From NCBI GenBank assembly GCA_001969505.1, contig LSSK01000196.1, positions 27,483 to 63,833 of the forward strand: a stretch of 36,351 nucleotides of DNA. Direction: 5' to 3'. Every line of letters begins with the position of its first letter. The first letter of the stretch is position 1. The position numbers and the translations under genes are program-made. Below are positions 11,843 to 27,355 of the stretch, piece after piece. The notes below the pieces were generated by a model that saw nothing but the letters and a program-made list of their open reading frames with translations, was not told the DNA's origin and did no database searches. The stretch is from Zancudomyces culisetae. Taxonomy: Eukaryota; Kickxellomycota; Harpellomycetes; Harpellales; Legeriomycetaceae.

Positions 11843-12260
11843 TGTATAATTTCTCAGTATTCTGTTGATGTGCTTGGCCTTTTTGGAGCTTTATCTTCTT
11901 GATAGACTTCAATAAAATATAACAAGATGGAGGGGAAATGAAAACAGTAAATACTAATTTGAAGGGTAGATGGAGATTGAATTTAGCTAGCTGGTTGTTA
12001 TTTGCTGGCTTTGGAAATTTAATTTGTGGGCACTCTGGGCAATTTTTTCTGATCAATTAAATTATCTAATGCTTTAAATTTGACGTAAAATAAAAAAAAA
12101 AATTTTTATGTGCGTAACAAAGATTTATAGATATTTTATTTGTTAAATTGAAAATACTTGAAAATACTTGAAAATATTAAAATAAACAATTTAAATAAGC
12201 TGTAAAATATATCATCTAAACAATATACATTAATTAGAACACGAAGAAACACTCGATAAA
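11843..12260. promoter_or_regulatory. Shared divergent promoter region
   Basis: 418 bp between the start codons of two divergently transcribed housekeeping genes (CXXC zinc protein, minus; SmD3, plus). It must contain both promoters and 5' leaders. It is AT-rich, especially 12060-12240, with a direct repeat of GAAAATACTT near 12148-12172. I see no defined factor-binding motif I would name. Confidence 0.5.
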
Positions 12261-12929
12261 ATGTCTATAGGAGCCACTATTAAACTATTACACGAATCAG
12301 TCGGGCATGTTGTAACAATAGAACTTAAAACTGGACAATTATACAGAGGCACGATGGTAGATGGTACTGTTTATAAATTTTGGGATATACTAACTTTTAC
12401 AATTCTTTTTTTTTTTGTCGATGTGAGGGTTTTTATATATAGTAAGGAGCATTTCCTAACAAAATTTATTGTTGACAACTTCTTTTAGTGGAGGACAATA
12501 TGAATGTTCAGCTGAGAGGAATAACTGTCACAGAAAGAGATGGAAGAACATCGTACCTAGAACAAGCGTATATTCGTGGATCTCATATTGTATTTTTTAT
12601 TGTTCCCGACATGCTTAAAAACGCTCCGATGTTTAAAAAGATTGATCCTAAATTTGCTAAAATGCGAGGTATTGGAATGAATCGGGGCAGAGGTTTGACG
12701 AAACCCTCAGGTAATACTACATTTCTTAATATAATTATCATCTAAAAGCATTTTACCTTTTTTTTTGATACTTGTATGGTTCTAGTATTTTTAGTTTTTT
12801 TTTCTTCGAGATGAAAAAAGAAGAGGTAGAAGGGAAGATTTAAGCATTACTTATATTATATGTGTATATATATATATTCGAATAGCACAAGCAAAAGCAG
12901 GACAAATGCATTCAAGAATGTCTCGGTAG
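12261..12929 (+). CDS. SMD3: Sm core protein SmD3 of spliceosomal snRNPs
   Basis: Three exons: 12261-12363, 12489-12710, 12886-12929, giving 122 residues. Introns are 125 nt (donor GTACTG, CCTAAC branch-like site near 12450) and 175 nt (donor GTAATA); both junctions are phase 1. The Sm fold is clear. The Sm1 motif runs from [19 protein letters not shown] through GTMVD to EDNMNVQL, and Sm2 contains [25 protein letters not shown] and YIRG supply the loops that contact the U-rich Sm site. The tail contains RG dipeptides ([11 protein letters not shown]), fitting arginine methylation in this family, and ends in a 14-residue last exon [14 protein letters not shown]. SmD3 pairs with SmB in the heptameric ring on U1, U2, U4 and U5 snRNAs. 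Without the last splice the frame would run into intron sequence ending NIIII. Confidence 0.95.
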
Positions 12930-14470: not shown

Positions 14471-15850
14471 CTATATTTTAACGCGAATATATATAAATGT
14501 TAAAATTAATAAACAAGTGATCAGGTGTATTTAATAAATGTTTGGTTATTGTAAATTATTGGTTTTTTATGTTAGTTTTAATATAGTATGTTATGTGATA
14601 TATGCTATCGCCGAGAGTGACATCTACTCCTCTTCCACCTTCACCCGCTCACTTTTTCCATTTCCATTTCTTTTTTACTTTCTTTCTTTCTTTCTTTCTT
14701 CTTCATCCCTTTTATACTCTCAGTTGTACAGCAATAGCGTCTTGGAATACCACCACTTATCTTTCCATTTACTTTAGGAGCGTCGTGGGATTTTAGTTAG
14801 TTGCAAAATAAATACAAGCGATAATAGTGTAATGATTACTGTTTATGTACCTAATACTCTCTAAAGAATAATCCACTTGCATCTTTCATGGATAAAATTT
14901 ATTTCATAGTAATCGATATATGAAGTATATACATCCGTACAAATTTTCCTCCAGCTATTTATAATTGTTTGTTGTCCGTGAGAAAGAAAAAAAATATGTG
15001 TGTGCGTGTGTATTTGTGTAAAGATGGTTCAGTTTGAAATATTTGGACTGTTAATGAGGAAAAATAATAAGTTGTTCATTTTATACCGGTTTTTTATTTT
15101 ATTTTTATTTGCGTATTCTAGTTTTTTCAAGTATTGGTTTGTTATTTAGAAATGTAAAACTAAGAGGAACATGTTAAAAAGTAAAACAATCACAACACCC
15201 AAAAAAAAAGTTGAGCATTTAGTCGTTTCATACTTGAAAGCTTTATCCGGAATAAATAACCTAATTCAGAAAGATTTAGAAATTTAAAAAAACCACATAG
15301 ATGGAGTGTTTTGTAGGTAGCTTTCTGTATCGAATGAACATTTCCCTATCAAGCTACCTGATACAACAAAGTTACAAAAGCAACAAAAAGCTGAAAAAGG
15401 CAAATACCGCAGGTTATTTTACAAATCGCTGAATATTTCATGTATATGAAAAAAAAAACAAAAGAAAAAAAGGAGAGAAAAAAAAGCAAACGGAAAGGTT
15501 TTGCTATCAATAGTACAAAAGTAGGCTATCTTTTGTTATCACTAATCACCTATCTAGCTTTAGTAATCGTTGACACTGTCAACACTTCTCATTGAGCCAA
15601 AAGAATTTGTGGATCGGGTTACTAGAAATAGAGAATATGAATGTGAATGATAGTAATAAAAAAAAAAGTTAAAAAGTTGATGCACAAAAATTATAAAATG
15701 ATTTTTTTTTGCAAAGGGATTTAAATGTAACCACATCATAAGGTAAACCACCAAAACAGGTCATGTAGTTCATAAAATACACATCATTATCCATTAATAT
15801 AAGGTTATCGCTCTTTTATACAATTCGCCACTGCTCGTTGGATAGTGGTT
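14471..15850. other. Sparse region upstream of the velvet-like exons
   Basis: Contains a (CTTT)n microsatellite at about 14677-14701, which lies on the putative 5' side of the velvet-like gene. It also holds two short plus-strand ATG frames: 15024-15149 (41 residues, one hydrophobic stretch) and 15301-15432, listed separately. On the minus strand a short exon-like block ends at 15560 (TRSTNSFGSMRSVDSVNDY, after CTATTTCTAG). No recognisable gene. Confidence 0.4.
15301..15432 (+). CDS. Small open frame, 43 residues
   Basis: ATG at 15301, TGA at 15430-15432. The product starts MECFVGSFLYRMNISL and ends in a basic tail KSNKKLKKANTAGYFTNR. Composition is varied and the frame has no obvious splice. 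No family is recognised, and a frame of this length is not rare by chance here. Confidence 0.2.
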   Translation: MECFVGSFLYRMNISLSSYLIQQSYKSNKKLKKANTAGYFTNR

Positions 15851-16503
15851 TTATGATGCCGACAACCTCCAAATATATTTATTTGTATAGTTTGGTTTGG
15901 TTAGACATTTCCGTAAGCAGTAGAAAAGCGATGCATTAATAAAAATTGTTTCACTTTTTTTTAATTTTGTCTCTCCTTGATAATATTGAGTTACAACCCC
16001 GAATTTGCTCATTTGATTTCCATAAACATTTGTAATAAAACAAGCTTTTGTACTGAAAAAAAAATTAAAAAGTAGTGATTAAAAACCATAATTTATTGTT
16101 AATAATGTTAATAACGTAAACCTGGGTAAAATTGCCGATAGATTTTAGAGATTTATTAACGTGCACTAAAAAAAATAAAATCGGCGGAATTATTTTTCAC
16201 TAATATTGTTACATCTCACATTAGAGAAATAAAAAAGTCAACCAATCGACCCTCTTATGTATTGAAGAATAAAGCTGGATGTACTCATCACTTTCAAATT
16301 TTCCATATTGGTAAAAAAAGTAAATAGATAAAAAAAAACATGGGAGTTTACATTAATAAGGAAAAGTAGTTTGCGTCTTACAAACCTATTTTTGAGTTTT
16401 AGCCAATAGGCGTGAAAAGCCGTACAACTCATGAATAACTTGAAACTTTGGTTTAATTCGTAAACATCTCTGGTTACGTTCCACAAAAAAAATTTTTTGA
16501 TTT
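15851..16503 (-). CDS. Candidate 3' exons of an unrecognised split gene
   Basis: Block one, 16503-16382, follows ATCTAG and ends before GTAAGA; it contains WNVTRDVYELNQSFKLFMSC. Block two starts at 16283 (YIQLYSSIHKRVDW). It either stops at 16221 or splices after the codon base before GTTGAC. Block three starts at 16052 after a strong TTTTTTTTTCAG acceptor and stays open for 66 codons to TAA at 15853-15851. It contains ITNVYGNQMSKFGVVTQYYQ and ends YIWRLSAS. All three can be joined in frame if the GTTGAC donor is used. I recognise no domain. Upstream exons, if any, lie beyond 16560, where ACTAAC and further AG sites are present. Confidence 0.25.
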
Positions 16504-17533
16504 CTAGATCAAATATTAATTAAAATCGGAGTCTTGATTGCCAATTATTTGTAGGGACTAGAAATTTGTTTGTTTGTTTTAAATTACACTTTGATAAGTC
16601 CATGCATGCTAAAAGTGAGAAAAAATGAGAAAAAAAAGCTAAAGCTTACACAAGTTAGTAAAATAGAAAAAAAGAATTAATAAACTAAATATATTTTTTC
16701 CCCATCTGCTTTGCCTCAATAGAATTTTTTTTTGTGTTACTAGGAGGAGGGGGGAAGAGAGACTTTAAAGGCTGATGTATCACACCTCAAACTTCGTATA
16801 TTGTACAGATTTTTTTTTGTTTTATCTGCCTATTTTCTTTTTAAGTATATCTTTGTGAATTTCTTTTATAAAAATTAATCTGAATTTACATTTACCAATA
16901 AAGATTGGTTTGATGTACGCGAAAAAAAGCATAAACCTTTGCAAAAAAAACTCGAGTTGACATAAGAAAGAGAAAAAAACATCTAGTTTGGTGTATTGGA
17001 TGTGATTTTTGAGAACTATAACAGGGTCACAAGAGCAACAGTGACATTTTCCCCCAGTATTTTGCGGTCTTTACAAATTTAGATAACTGATGAGAAAAAA
17101 AAAACACTAGAGATTTTCCAAAAAAGTATCAGGAACATGGTCACTTTGTATTGTGTTTTACAATATACAAGGTCAAAATTTGAAGGAATGGAAATGTTAT
17201 TTATACTCTTTATCAAGAGAGAATAAAATTTATATGTATACGTGATTGAGATGCACATACAATCATTTACTTTTTCATTGATTAGCTGGTTATACACTAC
17301 TCATTTCACATAAATAAAGAGAATTTTAATTTATATAGGAATTACAACAGTATCCTGTCTGTTAAAAATGGCAATATTACAGGCGAACTCGTTAAAGATT
17401 TGTAAAATTAAAATTAATATTACATTCCATAATCGATTCGCAGGTCTATTTATACTCTCAAAGGGAATAGACATTAAATAAATAGCTGTGATTATAAAAA
17501 TGCGAATAATATAATTGCAAACATATTAGCAAA

Positions 17534-17590
17534 TATTACCATTGAAACATTACCATTGGAATATTACCATTGGAATATTACCATTAGAAA
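17534..17590. repeat. 14-bp tandem repeat
   Basis: About four copies of TATTACCATTGGAA, with single-base differences at the edges and a decayed fifth copy. Confidence 0.8.
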
Positions 17591-17759
17591 TTATCATTAG
17601 ACCATGAAAAAATTTAAAAATAAAACCACGCAGTCATTCCTTCATTAATGATATCAATTTATTATGCCAGGATGGGGGATGGGATTTACACTGAATATTT
17701 GCTTTACAAACCGCAGCCGATTAATATAATTTTATTTACAGTATATATATGACGTAAAC

Positions 17760-17891
17760 ATGATTAAATTACGCCTAAAGTCTTTCCTAATCAAAGAGAA
17801 AAACGTGGGCCATATATTGAGTGTTTTTGTTTTTGTTTTTGTTTATAATTTTGTTTGCAATTTTGTTTGCTTTTGGAAGGATAAAGGATAA
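17760..17891 (+). CDS. Small open frame with one membrane-like segment
   Basis: 43 residues from an ATG at 17760: a basic start MIKLRLKSFLIKEKN, a Val/Phe-rich hydrophobic segment encoded partly by a GTTTTT repeat, and an end FWKDKG. The repeat origin of the hydrophobic part makes chance likely. Confidence 0.15.
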   Translation: MIKLRLKSFLIKEKNVGHILSVFVFVFVYNFVCNFVCFWKDKG

Positions 17892-18641
17892 GAGAAAGAG
17901 TAAAACAAGGAAAAAGGGGGCGTTGGGGGACCCATGGTAGCTTGCGTCTTTCTATTTCGAGAGTGTAGGTATTAAAAAAAAGCTAGTTTTGGTGTAAAAG
18001 CTTGACAAAAATTTTTTTTTTTTGCAAATCACCAGATATAATTCCGAGTAAATTATAAAATTTGTCACAAAGCAATTACATCTGGTTATAATTACGATTC
18101 TCATAATCTTGCTTTAGCAAAGAAATGGTAAAAGATCTTTGTGGGTATAGTGAATATAAGGTTATCCGTATTAAGGCCTTGCTCTTTAATTTGATACCAA
18201 ATAAGTAATTAAACACGCCAAAAAAAAACTGCACCTTCACAAACAAAAGCACCGTTTTGATAATTTTATTATTATTTTTACTTAAACTAATGTTAACGAA
18301 ATGTAACAGTCACTTTTACCCATTCAAAGACCCACTCAAAGCCTCGCTTTAGAATGTGAGTAGGAGTAGGGTAGATTGTATAGTATGAACAATGAAACTG
18401 AAAATAGTTTTATCCTTAATTAGTAAAGCGGGAAAGAGAGAGAAGGAAGGAAATGTACCGGAGAATGAGATGGAGCGGGAACAGAAAGTAGGGTGGGGTG
18501 AGAAATAAAAAGACAGAAAGAAATTATGAAGTGGCCACTAAAAAATAGCCAATCAATAAAACTACCCATTATTTGGATGTGAGCAATTTAGCACCACAAT
18601 CAAAAAGTAACCTAATCTAAATGGTATTTGTGGGAAGTGAA

Positions 18642-18661
18642 GGGGGAGGGAGGGAGGGGGG
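18642..18661 (+). other. Canonical G-quadruplex motif
   Basis: Four G-tracts (5, 3, 3 and 6 G) separated by single A bases, inside a purine-rich stretch on the plus strand. Confidence 0.8.
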
Positions 18662-19162
18662 AAGGTATTGGAAGTAATGAGTGGAGGTGAGAGAAGGAGG
18701 GGGTAGATTTTCATAAATCAATTAAAAAATCTGTTAAATAGATGACATAAATGAATGTATTTTTTATTTATTGAAGTTTAGTTTTCATTTATTAAAAAAA
18801 TTTATTGTCCCAGATATTTAGTAATTAATATGAGACACAACAATCATCTGGATTTAAACTACGTCATCATGCAGAGCCATAAACAAAAATACATATCCAT
18901 TGGTTCCATCCTAGAAAAATCTGATTGTTGGGTATTGGTGAGAGTTGTATTTGATTATCCTATTTACCACTGGAAATAAAAGGTGGTATATTTTCCCCCC
19001 AGTAATTTTCTTTGTACAACGCTTTTGTTCAAAAAAGAATAATGCTCTTGCACGTAGATAAAGAATGCCTATAAAATAATAAACAATAAATTCTGGCCAA
19101 TTCTGCCACTAAAGCACACCTAATATAGTAGAAAACCTTGAGTTCACTAAACACAAGTGCAA

Positions 19163-19722: not shown

Positions 19723-22700
19723 CTAGATAAAGATAAAGAAAAGAGCAAAGAAAATTAAATAGAATGGATAGTAGGAGTATGTTGTGGGTTTCAGAGCAGC
19801 ATTTAATGGAACGGGTCTGATGGTGGTTATTTCTTTAAGAGATGATGCTATGGAGGAATTGAAGTGTTTTATTTCATCGAGACGGCTATCATAAGCCTGG
19901 AGAAACTCGGCTTTTTGTTTGCTAATAAAGGAGTCGAGTTGATTTTGATTGGCTGGAGGTTTGTAGTTTTGAGCCAACTCATCCCTTGTTGATCGGACCT
20001 CAATGGCGAGATTGGATATTCTGGAGGAGGTTTTTTGAAGTAGGGTTTTGGAAGCATGGATATCCATGTCCAAATCCTTTCCGGGTTGATTTGGGAGTTC
20101 ATTGAGGGAGTTGTAGTAGTTTATTTTTTGTACAAGGATATCAGCCTGGTGAAGATCAAGAACTACTTTATCATGGAGTTTATTGTAATCGTTAGAAATG
20201 GAATGTAATTTTTTTAAACGATTAGAGTAGTCGGATACCACTTGTATAGAAGCAACAGTGGGCATATCTTTCAGTAAAGTGGATATGTCTTTGGGTGAGG
20301 AACGGGGTTTTAGTAGTGGTTGGGCACCTTGACGTTTGATGAAGGATGAAGTGAATGTGCCATGAGATAAACCTGAGCGTAAAATGTTGTCTCTGAGTAA
20401 TAATTCGGAAAAATTTTCAGCGACCATAATCTTGATTGCATCCAGTTGGCCGTTAATATTATTGAGAGTAGTGTAATTGACCTTAATATCATTATTTCCA
20501 AGAGTCTTGTAGCTTTCAAGTTCACCGGAAACCGATTTCAATAAAGCGCCACAATCTTCACAATAAGGCAACAAGTCTACTAGTTTATCTTTGTATAATT
20601 CAAACTTTCGCTTTATCAATTGTTGATAATACTCTACGGCTTTGGACTGAGCTTGGGGCATATTGATATTAAGCGATTTTAGAGTCTCAGGATTATTAAA
20701 TAGTGTGGTGCACAAGGAGCGGGCAGAATTAATTTTTTCTTCAAAGTCAGTGGATGACTGTACTGAATAATTGGGGGGTTCTGATGGAATGGAAACTTGT
20801 ATATTTTCATTGGAAATATCGAGGAATGGAAGAGCAATATTAATGCCATAGAGTTCATCTGCTTTTTTAATTTTGGATTCCATATTCTTGATTGTTTTTG
20901 ATAGTTTATCTTTTATGTTATTTAACACATTGGTAAGGTCACTTAAAAGTGACAAAATTTTGCTAACTCGTTCTGCTGAAATCGAGTTGATTTGAGAGAA
21001 ATAGTTGTTAATGTTAGTAATCAATTCTTTATATTCATTCTCCCTTTCCTTAACTTTATGTTTTATTTTTAAAAGTTCATTTCTGGAAATTTGCAGTTTA
21101 TTTAAAGCAATTTTAACATCCTCTTTTGACTTGGTTTCGATACTTTCTTTAATGGTTTTACAGTTAGTATCTACATCCAATATTTCTTTTTCAGCATTAC
21201 TAATATTTTGGGTAATTTGATCCATTATTTCCAAAAGTGAATCATGATATTTTCCAAATTCCAATATTTTCATGTAATCTTTGGCTGTAGAAATATAGTT
21301 TTGGATACTTGATTGATTATTAGAATAGTACGTAGGGTTATTCGAAAATCCAGCAAGTGCCTTCTGTAAGGATGTGAGTGCTAATTCATAGCCTTGAACA
21401 ATGTTGCTGTAGTCTAGCTTTAGCGGCTTGGGAGCTGTTGCCTCTGTACCATCTATTAGGCTATTTCCAAATGTTATCAACTCGGGTATTTTCTTTGCGG
21501 TATTTTCTACTGCTTTTTCCAGCTTATCAAAATTTCCGAGATACGATTCAAATGAACTCTGATAGTTATTCACAGCAGTTTGAGAAACATCTACATCGTT
21601 TTGCAAATCATTATCATCGAACCGCACATCAAGGCCTGGTTGATTCATTCTCCCCCCTTCAATGAAAAGTATTTTTTTAATTTTTTTTAATAGTGAACCG
21701 AGTCTAACTATTCGACTTTGATCAGCTTTAAAAGGATCAATATTTCTACGCTGTCCATCTTTCTCCATTAGGTTTGACTCGATTTTCTTTGTAAACTGAT
21801 CAATTTCAGAGTAAATGTGAGAAAGTTCGTCCATAATACCATTAACAACCTGGATAATTTGGTTGCAAATAGCTAGAGCTCTTCCCATATCATTGAAAAT
21901 TGGCTTTATTCCACTTGGAATTATATCGCCGTATAGTGTGAGAAGGGAAATGAATATAGGGTTATTTTTTTTGTAAAAGGTTACTAAATCACCAATGTCC
22001 TTCATGATGATTATTTTATTCTCGTTGTAGTATGACCTATTCAATTCCGACAACTTTTCAAGTCTTTCCAACAGATCACCAGGATTCTTTATATAAGTAA
22101 AAATTGGTTTTATCTCATTGGTGAGAGCACTAGATATAAAACCTTTGTTTCCATCTTTTGAAAGATTTAATATAAATTCCATAAAGTTGGTTTGGTCAAA
22201 ATCCTGGATTCGTAATAGTTGTGAATCATGATATCTATGCTTAATAATAACTTCAGCAATATTCCTCACTGATTTTTCGCTATTTGATGACTTGATTTTC
22301 CCTACCGTACTGTTGAATTTGTTCTGTATACTATTTACTAGTGCTATTTCGTTTTTTTTGTCACTATTGATGTCTTCATTGTCTAATTTAGCATCAAGTA
22401 ACTCTTTATTAATATCGTCAAAGATGTCAGAGGGTGTGAGTGGCAGAGACGTGATTTTATTTTCTACACTTTTTTCTACTCGAACTGGATTTTTTCCTAT
22501 TTCTTGCTCAACCTTTTTTATTAGTTCATTGATTTCATTTTTATTGTTGGTAATCGTTTTTGAATTCTCTGAAATTTTATTTTCAAGTTCTTTAAAACTA
22601 GTGTTCAAAGTGGTGGATTCAATGTGATCATTAAAATACTTTTCAAAACCAGCACAGTTTTTGTAATCTTTCACTTTTTCATCAATCTGAGTTGCCATGT

Positions 22701-25700
22701 TGGAAAGAGTAGTATAATAATACTTTGCTTTTATCAGGTCGTGTTTGAATTGATAGAGTTGGTTGATATCGCTCTCTGATTTTTGTCCCAATATTTTTTC
22801 GTTTTTCTTTCTTAGATCATCCATTGTATCATATTCTAATAATTCTGTGTATAATTTTAAATACTTGTTAAGAATAGATTTTATTTTTGCATTGTTGATC
22901 ATATTGCCCATTAGACAGACAGAGTTAGATTGTATGGTTGACTCAAATTTCCAAGTATATGAAAGGGGTTGCAAAGTATTTTTTATATCTTTAACAAGTC
23001 CCTCATTAAATGTTTGCTGGGATCCATTGTTTAATGTATATTCGTAATGAATATGAGTGATATCATCATCAATAGTAACAGGTGTTTTAGGCTCATTTTT
23101 TATATCTTTTACAGGACCATCACTAAATGTTCGCTGGGATCCATTAATTGAATTATAAATGTAATCATCAATATTATCAATATCAACATTATCATCAATA
23201 TCGAAATCATTATATAAGTCATCAACTTGTTTATCCAAGACATTGGCTACACTATTTTTGATTCTTTCTTGAAGGTTAATTAATTTTAGATAACAATTCT
23301 TAAGTAGCAATTCAATATTTTTACTAAATTGTCCATAAGGTTCAGAATCCAATAATACCCATTTTTCGTTTTCACCAAGTGGTTCAGAAAATTCGGGGTC
23401 ATTTAAATAATCATCATAATATTTACCCAGCTTTTTGTACATCTCATCTAGCTGCTTGTAAAATTCCATATCACCGAGTTGTTTATCATTTATCCTACCA
23501 ACTAACAGACCCAGGCTATAACAAAGTTTATACATACCAAGAATTACCTCCTTCTTGCCCTCTTGTAGCTCTTTATAGTTAGCCACATTCTGTTTAAATA
23601 CAGTTTCGAGCACATTAAAGGTATCATCTTTAATATTATTGATATACTTAGTTATTCCATTAATTATTTCTCCAAAGCTGATGATTTTTACGGATTCATT
23701 ATTATCGTTGTAGGTAATATCTTTACCACTTAACTTTGATATATCATTTTCTAAATCGAATACCAAATCGAGAGAATTTTCCATGGAGGTAATTGCATTC
23801 TCAACTATAGTAGCACACTCTGTTTTTTTATCATCAGTACATTCTATAAATGTAGTTAACGCTGTTTCTAACTCTTTTAATTGAGTATGTAGATCTAGAT
23901 TCCCAAGAGCCACAAGTTTACTCAAGACACTATTAAAGCTTTTTAAACCTTGATTCACCTCTTTCAATCCATTATATTTTTTTACATTTGAAATAAAATA
24001 ATCCAACTTATTTTTTAGATCGACTTTGAATTTTAAACTCTTTTTTACACACTCTTCATATTTTTTAACGGCATACACAAACCTTCTGTTGTTCTCATTC
24101 AAATCACTCATTTTTTTAAATTCAGTATTGGCCTTACTGATCAATTTGATTAAAGTCTGGATTTTCGTTGTCTCTGGTTTACCATCTCCGTTGTAAAATT
24201 TTGTACCGTCTATATTTTTAGCAATCTCCTTCAGTGCAGTTTTATAATCTGTTAGTCTTGCATTGTTTGATACGAGATTAGCTAACAATGCCTCTCCTTT
24301 CTCTGAGATATCACTAGCAGCTTCTCTTATATCGGTTACACGTGATTTTAAGGTTTCTAACTTGTGTTCTGGAAATTTTGATATAACATCTAGAATTTTT
24401 TTGGCATTAGTCACAATACCTGTTGGCTGATCAAGCAATTTTGCTGACAATTGTTTTTTATTATCAGATTCTTCAAGATAACTAACATACTGTTTCCAAT
24501 CGCAAACCAAATTTTTATGTTTTTCATAGATACTCCTTAATTCCTTCGCTTTATCACTCTTTTCTTTTATTCTTTTATAAGAATCTCCTTGAACTGAACC
24601 TTCTCCAAATGCACCATCAAAAAGTTTAATCTCAGAATCTATTTTACCATATTCTTCATTAAACAGCTGAAGTTCTTTTTCACATTTGCTTGCATCAGGC
24701 TCTCCATCCAATGAATCTATTTCGCACTTTAAATACTCGTTATGTTTCTCGTCAAAACTCTTTGCAATATCCGAATCAAGTCCATTTGCCACAAAATCAA
24801 ATATATTCTCCAGCTTAAAATCATTTTTCTTCAGGTTTTCACTGTTATATACCAAGTTGCTCCTAAACTTTTTGAGATTATCTGTAGAGAAGTATTCCTT
24901 TTCATCATGAAGAACATCTAGTGCTGTATCCTTGATAATATCTTTAAACCTCTTCTTGCTTTTTAATTCATACAACCTCGATAGTTTTTTACCGCTCTTT
25001 TGAATTGTTTCCAAGGTTGTGTTACTTTTCAAAAGTGCCCTATAGCCATCAAAAACCGAATCAAAATCTCTGAGCCCCGCAATATCTATCCAATCACCAA
25101 TAACGGTAATAAACTTGTACTTGTCCCTGTAACAGTATAAACCAGCCATATTAACAATTTTTCTTATATTAGCCAAAAGTGGCGTGTTTTCACCTCCAAG
25201 GTCGTATTTTACTTTGAATATTTCGATTTTTTTGCATATTCGGTTTATTTCTCCCTCAAACATACCAAGTTCGACAATTTTTTTTGCTGCTTTCATTGCT
25301 GCTGTTTGTTTATCCATAGTTGTCTGACTTGTAAATTCCTTTAGCGTATTCAACAGATCGACTTTGGTGGCCGCGCAGTTCACATCCAAACCATCGGATT
25401 CCTGTTTTAAGTCGATGTATTCGTTCAAAAATTCTTGAAGCAAACGTGCGTCTTTATACAAAGCAACCTCTTTTCGGAAAGTATCCAGCGTCACCTTATT
25501 AATTCTTGTCTTTTTATCATTGAGTATGCTTCCTAAAACTCTATCGTTCTTGTTACCCCCTTTGAACTGGTATAAAGTTTCATCCAGGTATAATGCATTT
25601 TCAAATACTTTTTTCCTGTTTCTGGTTAATATATCTTTTAACACCAAAAGCTGTTTCTTCGGCTTATCAATTTCAAAAGCATTCATGTAATTGTTAATTA

Positions 25701-27355
25701 GAGCTGAAAACCCGCTTTCCATTGGAGTATTACTATCAAAAATCCTACTAAAGCCAACCCATAAGAAATATTCATAAATATCGTCACAGTTCCTTTCTGC
25801 ACCAACTGGCCGGGAAAATGCTCGATATAATGGATATACAATATCGTCAAATTCAGCCACTGCACTCCCTAAGCCTTCAGTTTCTCTCTGTTCCTTACTC
25901 AAAAATCTCACTGATGACGGAGTTTCTTGAAAACTTTGTGGAATGCGCAAAAAACTAATACTCCCATTACATTCATCAAGTTGTTCTTGAAATTTTCCTA
26001 AAATAATGCTGTCCATATACTTGTCCATCATTGATGATATGTTACTATTGACAAAAAATGATACTTCATCACGATACAATTTGGCTATTAATATCACTGA
26101 GCGACGTACATTTGTTAACTCTGTGATACTTCCAATTATGCCTTTTATCTGTGTTGGACAATTCGTAATTTCTTCAAAAGTGACCAAGTCGGTAGAAAAG
26201 TCGATGTCCATTCCTGTTAAAAAATCAGCAGAAAATACATTTCGTTGATTTTTAAAGTTTTCACCTTGTGCATCGATTTTACTTTTCAAAGCTGCAAAGT
26301 TGACATCATTTATGTTTTTTTGTTTTAACAGCTCTTCAATCGTTTCCATGACATTTTTTGTGCACAAACGTTCTTGTGAATTAAATGCCACATGGTCCAA
26401 ATAATTTACTTTGACGTCATTCAGTCTATCTAACCTCAATAGAATCTTATATACCGCTTCAGTTTGTTCAAAAACATTATCCAATTTAATTTTACGTTCC
26501 ATTAACTTCATAAGCTCCGCATTACGTATCTCATCAATAAAATCCTTGGCCTCATTATTGTTTTTGTAAATGGGAACAGGGGGTGCTCCATTATTCATAT
26601 ACCTTTCTACCGCAACTTTGAATCCTTCTTTAGTCACAGACTCACTCCCGCGCTTTACCAACACCTCGCCCACAACTGTCCCTAATTCAGTGCGACCAGT
26701 ATTTTTGTATTCTTTCTCCATGATTCCAGTATTCACATACTCATATTGGTTCATATCCACAGATTCACGTTTATCCAAAAAGCTACCACTGTTGCTCTTT
26801 ACACCTATTCCTTTGCTGGCTCCCTTCATATCCTCCCCTTTTTTTTCATCCACATTTAAACCCAATTGTTGCAAATCGACTCCATTTTTGTTTTTCATAT
26901 TCAATACACCAGCTATTTATGAGTTACGTATGATTAGTATATACTAGTATCCTTTGGGTTATGTACAATACAATTATTGTATTTATAGTGATAAATCCAA
27001 TTTTGACCTTGGTTTCCAGTTGATTACAACAATCCGTTTCATCAAATCAAATCAAATCAAACTAAATCAAACCAAATCAAACCAAATCAAACCAAATCAA
27101 ACCAAATCAAACCAAATCAGAAAATAGCAACCATTAAGAAAAAAATTAATCAAGATTAACTCAATTACCTGATATGCCTTTGAACTCTTTAGCATCATTA
27201 AAATATACCACCCCACTTTGTTTAGTAGCATCACTAAACTGAAGGTAGTGGTATTGTTGCACGGTTTGCTCACCACTCGATCCATCGCGTGATACCACTC
27301 CTCCACACCATAATGCTGATACCACACAAAATTCAAATCCAATTCTAGCTTTCAT
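19723..27355 (-). CDS. Giant secreted helical protein, probable GPI anchor
   Basis: Two exons, 27355-27169 and 26912-19723, give 2458 residues. Exon 2 has no ATG at its open 5' border. The upstream ATG frame ends at a GTAATT donor, and the acceptor CATAAATAG at 26913 joins it in phase (split Ala63). Exon 1 begins MKARIGFEFCVVSALWCGG, a signal-peptide-like start. The rest is almost entirely charged, Lys/Glu/Asp/Asn/Leu-rich and helical, with many heptad-like stretches (about residues 400-1250 and 1400-2300) and few cysteines. Around residues 1318 and 1357 a segment is duplicated (NGSQRTFSDG and NGSQQTFNEG, each followed by VKDIKN). The C-terminus PLNAALKPTTYSYYP followed by FYLIFFALFFIFI fits a GPI signal; a tail anchor is the alternative. 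No known domain is seen. A fibrous surface or cell-wall protein is inferred. Nothing suggests a break: one 7.2-kb frame is intact. Confidence 0.8.
27041..27119. repeat. 10-bp minisatellite inside intron 1 of the giant gene
   Basis: Five copies of ACCAAATCAA plus one ACTAAATCAA, preceded by four copies of the related 5-bp unit ATCAA. It lies within the 256-nt intron 27168-26913, so on the transcript it reads as TTTGATTTGG copies. Confidence 0.9.

Follow-up and report, generated by a model that had tools for sequence, protein, structure and literature searches.

Among described fungal surface proteins, the Als and Flo adhesins are GPI-anchored cell-wall proteins of large size, with a signal peptide, a GPI-type C-terminus and a distal N-terminal part that binds. 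Giant coiled-coil proteins are also known among the Golgi tethers of the giantin/golgin type, which are cytosolic and carry no signal peptide. For the insect gut fungi of the order Harpellales, a genome comparison proposes, in the sections available, that these fungi depend on adhesion proteins; it describes spores that discharge glue within the gut, and of four classic fungal adhesins, Harpellales genomes were reported to hold few or none (PMC5954228). The same sections present FISCoG.g2, a Harpellales fasciclin-domain adhesion protein of 562 amino acids with Fas1 domains, for which extracellular adhesion is proposed (PMC5954228). Filiform spore appendages and a secreted holdfast are described for several Harpellales genera, Zancudomyces not being named in that portion of the text (PMC7270078). 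Zancudomyces culisetae, for which a transcriptome has been reported, belongs to this order and inhabits insect larval guts (PMC12611240); its host larvae are those of mosquitoes. In the parts of the literature that were examined, the grip of Harpellales on the gut of mosquito and black-fly larvae has no protein-level explanation.

The window, meaning here the whole stretch of 36,351 nucleotides that was analysed, corresponds to C413:27483-63833 of the Z. culisetae assembly (23.1 Mb, 859 contigs). On its minus strand, one stop-to-stop frame of 2397 codons (26916-19723) contains the large second exon of the gene considered here (Table 1), and joining 27355-27169 to 26912-19723 gives a protein of 2458 amino acids, in frame and free of internal stops. 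A protein search matched exon 2 to the hypothetical protein AX774_g2083 of Z. culisetae (2458 aa, 99% identical), from which the window copy differs at 19 residues. Another contig of the same assembly, C444, is 99.4-99.6% identical to the window over about 17 kb that span the gene and its neighbours, and because this high identity extends through both, C444 is a second haplotype rather than a duplicate elsewhere. The equivalent exon join on C444 reproduces AX774_g2083 letter for letter, and the exon 1 protein is identical on C444, in agreement with the earlier note, which had described a signal-peptide exon and an intact 7.2-kb exon encoding 2458 residues. At the level of sequence the gene and its frame are real, its splicing being predicted.

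Table 1. Features of the gene, with residue numbers of the protein and positions in the window
Feature	Residues	Window positions	Strand	Description
Exon 1		27169..27355	-	62 codons plus one base; signal-peptide-like start
Intron (predicted)		26913..27168	-	256 bp; starts GTAATT, ends ATAG
Exon 2		19723..26912	-	remainder of the 2458-aa protein plus stop codon; public model AX774_g2083
N-terminal putative head	66-760	24820..26904	-	little heptad-like periodicity, mixed predicted structure; soft boundary
Putative helical stalk	761-2430	19810..24819	-	hydrophobic periodicity near 3.45-3.55, acidic linker excepted
Acidic Asp/Asn-rich linker	1290-1390	22930..23232	-	no heptad periodicity
GPI-signal-like C-terminus	2433-2458	19726..19803	-	Asn-Ala-Ala, short spacer, hydrophobic tail

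The predicted intron carries TACTAAT at 26939, ending 20 bases ahead of exon 2; the TACTAAC site of an LSM-domain gene at window 12234-12745 served as the local splice comparison. Two LSM-domain exons lie there, the second passing the Pfam cut-off and the first not, and we take them to resemble SmD3. This SmD3-like gene flanks the giant gene on one side, with the genes for an MFS transporter and an M24 peptidase on the other. Between the haplotypes, the intron shows 3 substitutions in 256 bp and exon 1 shows 1 in 187 bp with no indel, counts that are too small for telling the two apart. The intron also differs by a 40-bp indel, not a multiple of 3, within a minisatellite of the 10-bp repeat TTTGATTTGG at about 27040-27120. 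In a search of the same genome, this minisatellite accounted for 10 of 13 matches; the 10 lie on 8 other contigs, among them C374:13312-13438, C465:6937-7041 and C325:17643-17720. Stretches taken from these three contigs gave no hit to the gene.

The two ends of the protein are its most hydrophobic parts. The top 15-mer is residues 2444-2458 (mean hydropathy 2.37) and the best one not overlapping it is residues 7-21 (1.80), the next reaching 1.60; both of the leading segments are terminal, which supports the signal-like character of the two ends proposed in the earlier note. At the N-terminus, Val-Val-Ser precedes Arg after the hydrophobic stretch and suits a cleavage site under the -3/-1 rule for signal peptides, but Glu8 within that stretch is unusual and counts against a signal peptide. 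At the C-terminus, Asn2433-Ala-Ala is followed by a charge-free hydrophobic tail that reaches the last residue, 2458, so that the C-terminal 45 residues satisfy a rule of GPI geometry that no internal 45-mer passes (0 of 2303); this rule is a simple one of our own making and no substitute for a trained GPI predictor. Counting against the GPI reading is Lys2437, located in the spacer that separates the proposed anchor site from the tail; it is the sole charged residue of the last 28, seven before the most hydrophobic tail part of about 15 residues. N-glycosylation sequons number 16, fewer than in shuffled sequences (25.7, SD 4.5), and lend no help to a secreted protein.

In composition, the protein is rich in Lys (10.7%), Leu (10.3%), Asn (8.5%) and Asp (7.3%), with Ser and Thr together at 12.6% and Cys at 1.0% (22 Cys outside the signal peptide), which accords with the earlier description of a Lys/Leu/Asn/Asp-rich rather than Ser/Thr- or Cys-rich protein. 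Heptad-like power in the four stalk segments scored (residues 760-1290, 1390-1880, 1880-2080 and 2080-2440) is 3.82, 3.64, 5.49 and 3.02, against shuffle means of 1.27-1.29 (SD 0.23-0.42). It is at background in residues 66-300 (0.94 vs 1.30 in shuffles), in residues 560-760 (1.34 vs 1.22) and in the linker at 1290-1390 (1.5 vs 1.33). Residues 300-560 are intermediate (2.21 vs 1.30, SD 0.38), and because they show some periodicity the boundary of the head is soft; a scan in 49-residue windows finds no peak at 3.5-3.6 in residues 100-560. AlphaFold2 models assign helix, with very low confidence, to 36% of residues 100-549, 78% of 750-1290 and 70% of 1380-2458. Both models were made from the single sequence (mean pLDDT 36.5 for residues 100-1290 and 39.3 for 1380-2458), contain no residue with pLDDT of at least 70, and are too poor for meaningful fold matches. 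Since periodicity is strong at 760-2440 and mostly missing at 66-760, a head on a coiled-coil-like helical stalk appears to fit better than helix throughout. The claim that nothing but charged helix lies between the terminal signals therefore holds for residues 760-1290 and 1390-2440 and fails for 66-300 and 560-760, where periodicity is at background. Internal repetition is slight: self-BLAST listed no internal repeats, and block comparison found nothing clearly above shuffles (best score 87; ten shuffles 58-83) beyond a short duplication within the linker, residues 1318-1335 and 1357-1374.

Compared with the Als and Flo adhesins, the protein shares a signal-peptide-like start, a GPI-like C-terminus, large size and an N-terminal part that could bind. 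It differs from these Ser/Thr-rich proteins in its Ser and Thr content, in matching no corresponding Pfam domain and in its helical, charged stalk, which, unlike their repetitive stalks, holds one short duplication and otherwise internal similarity barely above shuffles. With FISCoG.g2 it has in common the fungal order and a proposed extracellular adhesion role, but it is 2458 residues long and has no Fas1 match in Pfam at E up to 10. Giantin and the golgins resemble it in giant size, helical periodicity and a C-terminal hydrophobic segment, whereas the signal-peptide-like exon and the lack of a family match set it apart from them.

Profile searches gave no family. Exon 2 matched none in Pfam at E up to 1. 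When E values up to 10 were admitted, the complete protein gave one Pfam entry, an unrelated AI-2E transporter (0.51), and three entries of NCBIfam, a prokaryote library (MCE, 0.093; cytochrome b562, 0.2; SMC, 3.7), all of them far below their cut-offs; PDB sequences gave no match, either at E up to 1 or at E up to 10. That the protein has no recognisable family, as the earlier note had it, is thus consistent with all three collections, and at threshold none of them gave the match to an intracellular motor, kinetochore or Golgi-tether family that had been named as evidence against a surface protein; profile searches can miss diverged coiled coils. Three queries were searched against about 5.8 billion protein sequences. 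Whole exon 2 (7982 candidates scored) found AX774_g2083 alone, as did residues 1640-2080 (7956 scored); residues 66-1290 (7992 scored) found none, the full-length protein itself lying outside the length range of that search. These protein searches required shared 5-residue words and scored a limited list of candidates, and there may be a diverged orthologue in Smittium. Among viral contigs 12 stretches fit the search pattern, and among bacterial and archaeal contigs 46, with 0 confirmed in either set. In the literature, AX774_g2083 is named in no paper found, and a search on Harpellales with 'orphan gene' returned none; papers found for GPI proteins of helical or coiled-coil type in fungal walls included none of such kind by title or start of abstract, and those on trichospore, appendage and holdfast were, as listed, taxonomy, morphology or unrelated work.

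These features point, with a little better than an even chance in our judgement, to a gene that is single-copy and lineage-specific and whose product is a secreted surface protein, GPI-anchored and with a head on a helical stalk. In such a protein, exon 1 would be spliced to exon 2 and the signal peptide would direct entry into the secretory pathway, with cleavage and lipid anchoring (GPI) to follow. The head (about residues 66-760) would then be held off the plasma membrane by the extended coiled-coil-like stalk (about 760-2430) and might bind, for instance where the fungus attaches itself within the insect gut. We infer splicing, secretory entry, cleavage, lipid anchoring, shape and binding, and are least sure of the last steps. 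It is unlikely, though worth weighing, that exon 1 is unused and that an ATG near 26900, which sits just within exon 2, starts a cytosolic giant coiled-coil protein held to a membrane by its C-terminal tail in the manner of a Golgi tether. The long helical periodicity and terminal hydrophobic segment would suit such a tail anchor, and the sequons are depleted, but the public model AX774_g2083 includes exon 1, and exon 1 recurs with its 5' flank in a decayed relic on contig C127, though this is no proof of splicing. Moreover, the tail is at its most hydrophobic over about 15 residues, which extend to the last residue, with Lys2437 the one charge nearby, and no tether family was matched. Rather improbable, in our view, is a secreted protein that lacks a GPI anchor at the surface, being either held by an ordinary short membrane segment at its C-terminus or kept back within the secretory pathway; the tail suits a membrane segment too and the GPI call comes from the self-made rule, yet the hydrophobic tail ends the protein and is preceded by a small-residue site.

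Searching the same genome with the whole of exon 2 and with seven pieces yielded, besides the gene and its second haplotype, two decayed relics, one on contig C43 and one on C127. The C43 relic is a part of exon 2, matching window 22045-20792, and shows 390 differences in 1163 aligned coding sites, stops, and 28 alignment gaps, 23 of them frame-breaking; its divergence at the three codon positions is 0.37, 0.32 and 0.32. The C127 relic matches window 27900-27013, which takes in exon 1 together with about 545 bp of 5' flank and the first part of the intron, with 22 of 23 gaps not multiples of 3 and two stops in exon 1. A second, weaker match on C127 (window 24807-24372, 56% identity; blastn E 7.5e-18, protein E 0.0016) is doubtful in its placing because it overlaps the end of the main match on the contig (2465-2594); if real, it would link the exon-1 module to the body of exon 2 in a second copy that has lost a large piece. 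Apart from this match, the two relics each cover their own part only. The expression 'undescribed system', used in the earlier note, is too strong for one gene and two dead relics. Beside the C43 relic, at C43:18115-19486, an open frame encodes a small Cys/Arg-rich protein that looks secreted, with sequence repeated across a run of N; beside the C127 relic, at L022:3519-4007 (C127), lies a 163-codon open frame that is very rich in Cys and resembles a metallothionein.

Between the haplotypes, exon 2 carries 26 substitutions (19 nonsynonymous, 7 synonymous) and no indel. A plain site count gives a nonsynonymous/synonymous ratio of 0.68 (0.0032 to 0.0047); under the observed transition bias, neutrality predicts that 71% of non-stop changes are nonsynonymous and 73% were observed, so that omega becomes 1.1 (one-sided p 0.66). 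Substitutions per kb are similar in exon 2 (3.62), upstream (3.36) and in intergenic sequence (3.59), and the changes in neighbouring genes (MFS 2 nonsynonymous and 4 synonymous, M24 none) are too few for comparison. The codon positions are about equally diverged from both relics. The residues thus show no clear sign of constraint, amino-acid changes running near the neutral rate; segregating weakly harmful variants would equally raise the haplotype ratio. A clear in-frame codon signal, sought in exon 2, is slight at most: codon preference is -0.033 in frame, compared with -0.049 and -0.053 for the two other sense frames and no more than 0.003 for the antisense frames; codon usage lies near the expectation from base composition and below that of 9 of 10 comparison open reading frames of the same genome.

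Decay could account for much of this, the gene being non-functional or on its way there, the last member of a family that is dying out, with its frame open by chance: both other copies are dead, the haplotype changes look neutral, as does the even divergence of codon positions from the relics, and codon preference is weak. Moreover, the chance that 26 random substitutions leave the frame open is 0.44, and because of this the haplotypes alone are uninformative on stops. We nevertheless hold decay to be very improbable on two counts. If half of the distance to the C43 relic lies on the intact branch, and 3.1% of random changes are nonsense, exon 2 should have gathered about 37 stops when unconstrained, and 0 are found. 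All 8 indel events between the haplotypes fall outside the gene's exons, in about 7.4 kb beyond these and the MFS and M24 frames, a mostly non-coding sample that predicts about 8 in the 7.4 kb of the gene's exons; the chance of the observed 0 in exon 1 and exon 2 is about 3 in 10,000, a rough estimate, since part of the 7.4 kb may be coding, one event borders the MFS frame, and a repeat accounts for at least one. A gene whose frame is kept while its residues drift fits a requirement for its existence, length and helix, with residues that matter little or change under pressure; such a required long helical protein with loose residues fits both the near-neutral changes and the preserved frame. 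The gene exemplifies a held frame with sequence drift at about the neutral rate.

Regarding function, codon usage is weak evidence against an abundant coat protein, so that a tether, adhesin or receptor of low abundance becomes the likelier reading. Of the 'surface layer or tether' envisaged earlier, the layer is weakened, codon usage bearing no sign of high expression, and the tether or adhesin is kept as a reading of the sequence. For the GPI-anchored head-and-stalk protein that we favour, a role as surface tether or adhesin is the likeliest, though taken by itself it is on the doubtful side. A tether or filament is plausible by analogy because of the Harpellales reports of adhesion, glue, appendages and holdfast. 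More speculatively, and with a low probability, it might represent a fungal surface protein of a new kind, found in Z. culisetae or close kin alone. The residues of its very long helical stalk would drift freely provided that frame, length and helical periodicity persist, and the stalk would serve as a mechanical spacer that presents a fast-changing binding head to the insect gut lining, or the protein would build a filament such as a spore appendage. A giant orphan surface-protein candidate with two dead relatives provides a concrete, testable candidate for attachment.

On the 3' side of the gene, window 14500-19000 forms a stretch of about 4.5 kb with no open frame of at least 94 codons. The pairing of C413 with C444 would be expected of a heterozygous diploid, or of a mixed culture.
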